From: Chamaelirium japonicum
Taxonomy: Eukaryota; Streptophyta; Magnoliopsida; Liliales; Melanthiaceae
Assembly (NCBI GenBank): GCA_947650365.1
Contig: OX393549.1
Coordinates: 96,330,014 to 96,394,013 of the forward strand
Length of the DNA stretch: 64,000 bases
Direction: 5' to 3'
In this document: piece after piece, positions 4,439 to 52,772 of the stretch
Layout: every line of letters begins with the position of its first letter
How positions within the stretch are numbered: position 1 is the stretch's first letter
The notes under the pieces: generated by a model
Databases searched by the model: none
What the model was told of the DNA's origin: nothing
What the model saw: the letters and a program-made list of their open reading frames with translations, nothing else
Made by a program: the position numbers and the translations under genes

Positions 4439-4555
4439 CAGAGATATCAAAGGACCCTCATCCCCATCAGTCGTAATATGCGTCATCAATGCTAAATTTT
4501 TTGTCAACCCACAGGCTTCTCCTTCCGGAGTGTCACAAGGACAAAGCATTCCCCA
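4439..4555 (-). CDS. NRPC2: NRPC2 exon h (39 codons)
   Basis: Encodes [20 protein letters not shown] and then [19 protein letters not shown]. Acceptor CAACAG, donor GTCTGT. It carries the CP-x-x-TPEG-x-x-x-GL signature common to all multisubunit RNA polymerase second-largest subunits. The following exon was not found in the remaining 4.4 kb. Confidence 0.96.

Positions 4556-52772: not shown

Follow-up and report, generated by a model that had tools for sequence, protein, structure and literature searches.

The DNA analysed here (the window) is a 64,000-nucleotide stretch of Chamaelirium japonicum, C1:96,330,014-96,394,013, in a genome of 1,518,659,071 bases and 3,253 contigs that was also searched. 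On its minus strand the window carries eight short exons between positions 4439 and 52772 (Table 1). Together they comprise 672 nt, or 224 aa, without a stop; each has AG/GT borders and a length divisible by 3, and all introns between them are in phase 0. The exons span 48,334 bp and are separated by introns of 17,884, 80, 23,145, 86, 6,187, 86 and 194 bp. Borders, frame, lengths and positions were recomputed and agree with the initial annotation, which had described eight phase-0 exons totalling 672 bp over 48.3 kb; we also share its view that such exons are invisible to ORF-based gene finding.

Sequence comparison indicates that these exons encode RPC2/NRPC2, the second-largest subunit of RNA polymerase III, which corresponds to POLR3B in human and RET1 in yeast. 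When 26 PDB sequences were ranked with a query of 111 aa from exons 6-8 (with an additional V where exon 6 joins exon 7), human and yeast RPC2 came first (E = 6.6e-49 and 5e-47), and the best RPB2 (E = 2.4e-25) lay more than 20 orders of magnitude behind RPC2. The earlier assignment to a Pol III core subunit, for which a search against plant NRPC2 proteins had been proposed, is thereby borne out. Exons 2-8 (211 aa) align unbroken to human RPC2 residues ~305-514, with 124/209 identities as against 76/208 to human RPB2, and contain the Pfam domain RNA_pol_Rpb2_3. The sequence is closer to RPC2 than to RPB2, RPA2, the Pol IV/V subunit 2 or archaeal RpoB. This homology rules out chance exons. The domain order of the Rpb2 family is also present, with the motifs GYDIEDA..NKSSLDRGF and GDKFSSRHGQKG in exons outside the window.

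The 13-residue exon 1, which is exon 11 of the whole-copy model described below, is placed by splice signals and in-frame fit, without homology. It obtained no homology support of its own from human RPC2, yeast RPC2 or an Arabidopsis sequence, ranking 442nd of 1,284 open AG..GT segments against the first two and 257th once the third was added, and spliced alignment chose a different segment. It is one of three among the 1,284 that pass a strict splice filter, which was set after the exon had been seen, and it fits in frame between exon 2 and an exon just outside the window (64968-64909) that ends in ALEYLDGM. One sister copy matches the 301 bp surrounding it at 100% identity and another at 94%, with frame and splice sites retained; in the more distant sister the exon differs at 3/39 positions and its flanks at 10/222, so that it is conserved no better than its flanks. 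At the other end of the series, the 3′ border of exon 8 is matched by the following exon of a sister copy, which starts CYSLGVEDLEL after AG in the expected frame.

Among the best 60 tblastn matches listed there were no N- or C-terminal NRPC2 exons within the window, because such exons lie outside it, and ranking of candidate next exons yielded none in window positions 1-4438. Scans of the window for tRNA genes and Rfam families gave no matches.

Table 1. Positions of the exons, transposons and other features in the window, and of the NRPC2 copies on chromosome C1
Feature	Position	Strand	Remarks
Exon 1 (model exon 11)	52734..52772	-	13 aa; splice signals, in-frame fit, open in both sister copies
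Exon 2, NRPC2	34799..34849	-	17 aa; identical in both large sister copies
Exon 3, NRPC2	34620..34718	-	33 aa; tblastn with human RPC2 (among the best 60 matches listed)
Exon 4, NRPC2	11415..11474	-	20 aa; tblastn with yeast RPC2, E = 9e-6 (best 60 matches)
Exon 5, NRPC2	11239..11328	-	30 aa; alignment to RPC2, sister-copy comparison
Exon 6, NRPC2	4947..5051	-	35 aa; tblastn and PDB ranking; last codon R, Q in both large sisters
Exon 7, NRPC2	4750..4860	-	37 aa; tblastn and PDB ranking
Exon 8, NRPC2	4439..4555	-	39 aa; tblastn E = 1.6e-16; 3′ border fits next exon of sister copy
Tandem array	6960-7690		~163-bp units; 6.2 kb intron
LINE 1	12355..18176	+	23.1 kb intron, antisense to NRPC2; Pfam Exo_endo_phos, RVT_1, zf-RVT, DUF4283, zf-CCHC
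Solo LTR, ~3.1 kb	20264..29152	+	23.1 kb intron; split by LINE 2
LINE 2	22074..27834	+	23.1 kb intron, antisense to NRPC2; nested in solo LTR; 15-bp TSD GATAGACTAAGCCGG
Inverted repeat	35167-35796		74-88% self-complementary
LTR retrotransposon	41512..46630	+	17.9 kb intron; gag/protease ORF only (42865-45402); TSD ATAAT
Solo LTR	47858..49764	+	17.9 kb intron; TSD ATACG
Solo LTR	55081..57751	-	intron upstream of exon 1; TSD ATGTG
Inverted repeat	60259-60678		83% self-complementary
NRPD2/NRPE2 fragment	60673-61818	-	inside NRPC2 intron
Copy 1	C1:96,012,220 to 95,823,287	-	near-full
Copy 2 (window copy)	C1:96,443,673 to 96,247,368	-	near-full, without last two exons
Copy 3	C1:96,811,834 to 97,042,721	+	near-full, inverted relative to copies 1 and 2
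Copy 4	C1 ~96.62 to 96.53 Mb	-	partial, more diverged

Extent of the window copy and content of its introns

When the window was extended by 100 kb on each side, searches with human and yeast RPC2 located, among the best 60 matches listed, minus-strand exons in collinear order between residues 12 and ~1090. A model of the whole copy (copy 2) was built by spliced alignment guided by the human, yeast and Arabidopsis sequences and then corrected by hand: two spurious segments (alignment exons 11 and 19) were replaced or trimmed, as were the overrun ends of exons 18 and 35. The model begins with an in-frame ATG at C1:96,443,673 and contains 34 exons with 3,180 stop-free nt in 196,306 bp, reaching approximately human residue 1077. 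Identity to human RPC2 is 55% over residues 12-514 and 60% over residues 562-1077. Introns account for 193,126 of the 196,306 bp, and 14 of the 33 are at least 1 kb long; the presence of 33 introns rules out a processed (retro)pseudogene. The 48 kb given earlier for the gene is correct as the span of the eight exons but not as the extent of the gene. That single-gene reading was replaced once the genome search showed exons on both sides of the window, and the copy covers at least 196 kb, of which the eight-exon span is about one quarter as found and the window about the middle third.

The copy 2 model lacks the exon or exons corresponding to human residues 515-556, because 2,500 bases adjoining the window (C1:96,327,514-96,330,013) read N; model exon 19 starts at the edge of an N run and is incomplete. 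The copy 3 exon that covers the gap reads CYSLGVEDLELMSGEELHEPSSFLVMFNGLILGKHRRPE, in frame after exon 8. The model's exon 23/24 junction is uncertain, as a GC-AG reading that gives GYNLLLRADT would fit better than the GT border chosen. Model exon 1, outside the window, ends at gcaagt (window coordinate 113505), the start of a GC-AG intron. Model exon 7 (65 nt) occurs twice in copy 2, at C1:96,422,757 and 96,412,344 (~92.8 and 82.4 kb in window coordinates), 10.4 kb apart, in a repeat that includes ~7.3 kb of surroundings and is 97.7% identical over 7,350 columns. It is listed once each in copies 1 and 3.

The initial annotation had also described introns filled with transposons, including at least two full-length LINEs and several LTRs. 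Both LINEs were found, with their domains and ORFs, together with one LTR retrotransposon and three solo LTRs. The two LINEs, of the plant L1 type, show an ORF1 CCHC finger, ORF2 endonuclease and reverse transcriptase, an A-rich 3′ end and the TSD expected of such elements, with no exact TSD of at least 11 nt at LINE 1. In LINE 1, ORF1 (12381-14450, 690 aa) and ORF2 (14454-18086, 1,211 aa) are both open; in LINE 2, ORF2 (24113-27556) is open and ORF1 is broken by a stop. LINE 1 is absent from copy 1, where the sequence corresponding to window position 12354 joins 18177 uninterrupted with a 10-nt overlap. For the solo LTR that LINE 2 splits, a matching TSD was not found. LINE 1 and this solo LTR with LINE 2 make up ~14.7 of the 23.1 kb of their intron. 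The LTR retrotransposon is antisense to NRPC2, and its LTRs differ at 9/1,215 aligned sites, which corresponds to an age of 0.3-0.5 million years at assumed substitution rates of 1.3e-8 and 7e-9.

Other repeats in the window are a tandem array and two long imperfect inverted repeats, which are possibly foldback elements. One NRPC2 intron also holds a decayed fragment of NRPD2/NRPE2, with frame changes, stops, one internal deletion and one insertion, which shares 74-83% identity with the intact-looking NRPD2/E2 that this genome carries on C10. Both this Pol IV/V subunit fragment and the plant-type domains of the LINEs mark the DNA as that of a plant. An RPC2-like tblastn match at 61.3 kb was rejected as an NRPC2 exon, being this decayed Pol IV/V subunit-2 fragment.

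Related copies on chromosome C1 and the 3′ end of the window copy

A 1.25-Mb region of chromosome C1 (95.82-97.07 Mb) contains three near-full NRPC2 copies, of ~189, 196 and 231 kb, together with a partial one. Window exons 2-8 had 23 matches in the genome, of which 18 fall at three places on C1 (95.91-95.95, 96.33-96.36 and 96.89-96.92 Mb); searches with N-terminal and C-terminal exons gave 48 and 15 matches, respectively, and middle exons were searched as well. A search with late exons gave 142 matches (139 of 187 candidates scored), many of them on small contigs at 34-42% identity, and these look like plastid or bacterial-type rpoB. An isolated partial match to the C-terminal exon at C6:39,476,003-39,476,133 (64-67% identity, two overlapping pieces) is perhaps another gene fragment. 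No relatives were confirmed in viral_contigs. The initial annotation had held that another complete NRPC2 locus with all the expression, and no spliced reads joining these exons, would make this one a decayed duplicate; two near-full copies and one partial copy on the same chromosome, together with the 3′ loss in the window copy described below, go part of the way towards that.

The copies differ in their completeness. Copy 4 has no match to exons 2-8 and has a stop near its last exon, with some 5′ exons near 96.619 Mb on both strands. Copies 1 and 2 contain N stretches, so that copy 3 alone showed exons for human residues 515-556; the searches detected no exons for residues 515-570 in copy 1, where 95,904,000-95,907,000 reads N. 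A late exon beginning ITGFPLQAYIFMGP... is among the matches listed for copies 1 and 2, not copy 3 (139 of 187 candidates scored). The 3′ part of copy 3 is present twice in the same orientation, 24.75 kb apart (C1:97,042,342-97,042,721 and 97,067,092-97,067,471, with the second part at 97.057-97.067 Mb). Matched introns among the copies differ in length up to fourteen-fold: the intron between window exons 3 and 4 is 17,688, 23,145 and 1,634 bp in copies 1, 2 and 3, and that between exons 5 and 6 is 18,653, 6,187 and 29,708 bp.

In copies 1 and 3 the last two exons are intact and lead to a stop codon, as VCRECGLLGYYNHKLKSSFCSMCKNGNNISTMNMPYACKLLFQ, an intron of ~190 bp and ELQSMNIVPRLRLT(D/E)A-stop. 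From exon 34 onwards copy 2 aligns with copy 1 at 97.6% identity for 2.67 kb into the following intron; the homology ends at C1:96,244,701, ~310 bp short of the point at which copy 1 carries its penultimate exon. This exon is absent from the 14.7 kb of copy 2 beyond the breakpoint, that is, from 17 kb downstream of exon 34, and the genome-wide C-terminal search found none between 96.01 and 96.25 Mb; apart from the weak partial match on C6, the exon is listed in no copy other than 1, 3 (twice) and 4. At 96,226,058, downstream of copy 2, lies a fragment that resembles the last exon (88% like copy 1 over 58 nt, 83% like copy 3). It adjoins no penultimate exon and is far more diverged than the rest of copy 2. 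The C-terminal RPC2 segment CxxCGLLGYYN ... PYACKLLFQELQSMN, present in copies 1 and 3, is thus missing downstream of exon 34 in the window copy, which was for this reason classed as a truncated copy and not as a complete RPC2 gene.

Divergence between copies was compared over exons 2-8 (633 nt, exon 1 left out) and, for noncoding DNA, over BLAST blocks close to the exons that were at least 250 bp long rather than over entire introns. None of copies 1, 2 and 3 has a stop in these exons. Copies 1 and 2 differ at two exonic positions, both nonsynonymous, and at 88/8,541 noncoding positions near the exons (~1%), a contrast of 2/633 with 88/8,541 that is not significant (Fisher p = 0.09). Each of them differs from copy 3 at 14/633 exonic positions (5 synonymous, 9 nonsynonymous; Ka/Ks 0.52) and at ~5% of noncoding positions (203/3,922 for copy 1, 212/3,931 for copy 2). 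The exons are therefore less diverged from copy 3 than is the noncoding sequence (Fisher p = 6e-4 for copy 1, 2e-4 for copy 2), and constraint has therefore acted in the NRPC2 family after copy 3 split. For a protein of this kind a Ka/Ks of ~0.5 is high, consistent with relaxation in some copy.

The last codon of window exon 6 specifies R only in copy 2; both other large copies have Q there, like human RPC2, human RPB2 and an archaeal subunit, and yeast RPC2 has H. Copy 3 has W in place of an R that all four of these reference subunits share. From this change and the late exon that is not listed for it (139 of 187 candidates scored), copy 3 may be unsound too.

Interpretation of the window copy

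Because copy 2 is cut off at its 3′ end, it is most likely dispensable. We consider it probable that copy 2 is a recent, 3′-truncated and non-essential duplicate of NRPC2, and that the protein comes from one of the other giants, copy 1 or copy 3. The observations comprise the exons and their splice borders, the transposon insertions and their target duplications, the number and divergence of the copies, the empty LINE site and the loss of homology ahead of the last two exons; transcription, splicing and the identity of the working copy are inferred. NRPC2 would have grown to ~190-230 kb as transposons entered some of its introns, while many others stayed at 70-200 bp. The giant gene would then have been duplicated, giving the three near-full copies and one partial copy at 95.82-97.07 Mb. 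Copy 2 would have arisen or split recently from copy 1, as their ~1% noncoding divergence suggests, and would since have gained further transposons, including LINE 1; it ends short of the last two exons. Copy 1 or 3 would supply the protein through long Pol II transcription and splicing across transposon-filled introns. The best candidate for the working gene appears to be copy 1, in which both ends are intact where read, exons 2-8 are stop-free and the ancestral Q is retained. The initial annotation's premise that the copy at this locus is the essential gene is probably wrong, given the sister copies and the lack of the last two exons in copy 2. Against a truncated duplicate stand the otherwise sound state of copy 2, with its ATG, 34 exons, stop-free frame and standard splice borders, and the constraint on exons 2-8 in the family after copy 3 split; at 1% divergence, however, intact exons are weak evidence of function, as a neutral copy would keep exons 2-8 intact with a probability of 0.23-0.39 at K = 0.01.

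The same closeness of copies 1 and 2 could instead reflect two alleles placed in tandem by the assembly, a false duplication in which the true gene has a single copy here besides copies 3 and 4, which are older; the 3′ end absent from copy 2 would then mark the place at which the extra haplotype was cut. Their shared orientation, ~1% noncoding divergence and haplotype-like differences in transposon presence, as well as the clean break in copy 2's homology, agree with this explanation. It is nevertheless unlikely: real local duplication has occurred, as shown by copy 3, which is inverted with 5% divergence, and by the still more diverged copy 4, and model exon 7 is found twice within 10.4 kb in copy 2 and is listed once in copies 1 and 3.

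We judge it decidedly improbable that the window copy is a functional gene whose last exons lie hidden in unread or N sequence, or have given way to an alternative 3′ end. The intact ATG, 34 exons and splice borders speak for a functional copy, as does the lower divergence of exons than of noncoding sequence in the family. No penultimate exon is listed between 96.01 and 96.25 Mb, however, or found in the 17 kb downstream of exon 34; the 65-nt exon 7 is duplicated and would shift the frame if both copies were used in one message; and the Q-to-R change is private to this copy.

A further, highly speculative proposal, which we regard as very unlikely, is that all three giant copies are transcribed and that the truncated copy gives an RPC2 without its C-terminus, or antisense and small RNAs from its transposon introns, that tune Pol III dosage; the essential gene would thus need IBM2-like read-through of heterochromatic introns and would feel transposon silencing directly. 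Least credible of all is an old, long-dead pseudogene with relic exons, for which the transposon load and departures at 6/48 residues conserved across four reference subunits might be cited, but which is largely refuted by the lack of any stop or frameshift in 3,180 nt, by the probability of only 0.0015-0.004 that a neutral copy keeps exons 2-8 intact at a divergence of K = 0.05, by similar departures in the references themselves (8/56 in yeast RPC2, 3/51 in human RPC2), and by the stops and frame changes of the truly decayed NRPD2 fragment in the same intron.

Comparison with known systems

The preferred reading, a recent truncated duplicate of a giant NRPC2, can be set beside several known systems. 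Copy 2 resembles RPC2/NRPC2 in sequence, domain order and motifs over human residues 12-514 and 562-1077, and differs in lacking the last two exons, in comprising at least 34 exons spread across 196 kb or more and in being one of several genomic copies. It shows the short conserved exons and many-kilobase transposon introns of a transposon-expanded, long-intron plant gene. Growth of introns by transposons is already established in essential plant genes. According to one study, MSH1 reaches 805,861 bp with introns of up to 101,025 bp and exceeds 50 kb in all the orchids and gymnosperms selected (PMC10487979); a review reports gymnosperm introns of more than 20 kb and LINE-rich long introns in Gnetum and Amborella (PMC9364684), and gymnosperm long introns are also treated in PMC4108047. 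NRPC2 is alike in being a conserved, mostly single-copy gene lengthened to tens to hundreds of kilobases by transposons in some of its introns. It is unlike them in encoding a core subunit of Pol III and in having several recent copies here, with strongly differing intron lengths.

Recent, partly tandem duplication followed by loss of function in some copies is described for the rice RPC4 duplicates DGS1/DGS2 in PMC5555463. That account likewise concerns a Pol III subunit gene, with the differences that it is RPC4 rather than RPC2 and that the segments are ~14-16 kb rather than copies of 190-230 kb. NRPC2 is essential: the same paper states that Arabidopsis female gametes with defective nrpc2 abort (PMC5555463). 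In Arabidopsis, IBM2/EDM2/AIPP1 process genes with heterochromatic introns, according to PMC11265718; by analogy, these factors offer a possible route for Pol II through heterochromatic transposons in introns, which NRPC2 might need. The literature searched contained no description of a giant or multi-copy NRPC2. What is unusual here is a Pol III core gene of ~200 kb together with several recent copies in which matched introns differ up to fourteen-fold.

An NRPC2 of 190-230 kb that is less than 2% coding represents an extreme case for transcription and splicing through transposons, and annotation is likely to split or miss such a gene. The window also serves as a warning that intact short exons in a transposon-rich copy do not prove a working copy. 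Recent copies with near-identical exons and very different introns allow intron length to be compared with expression inside one genome. If all the copies are transcribed, these loci, with copies ~1-5% diverged and matched introns of 1.6-30 kb, would constitute a natural experiment on the transposon load of introns.
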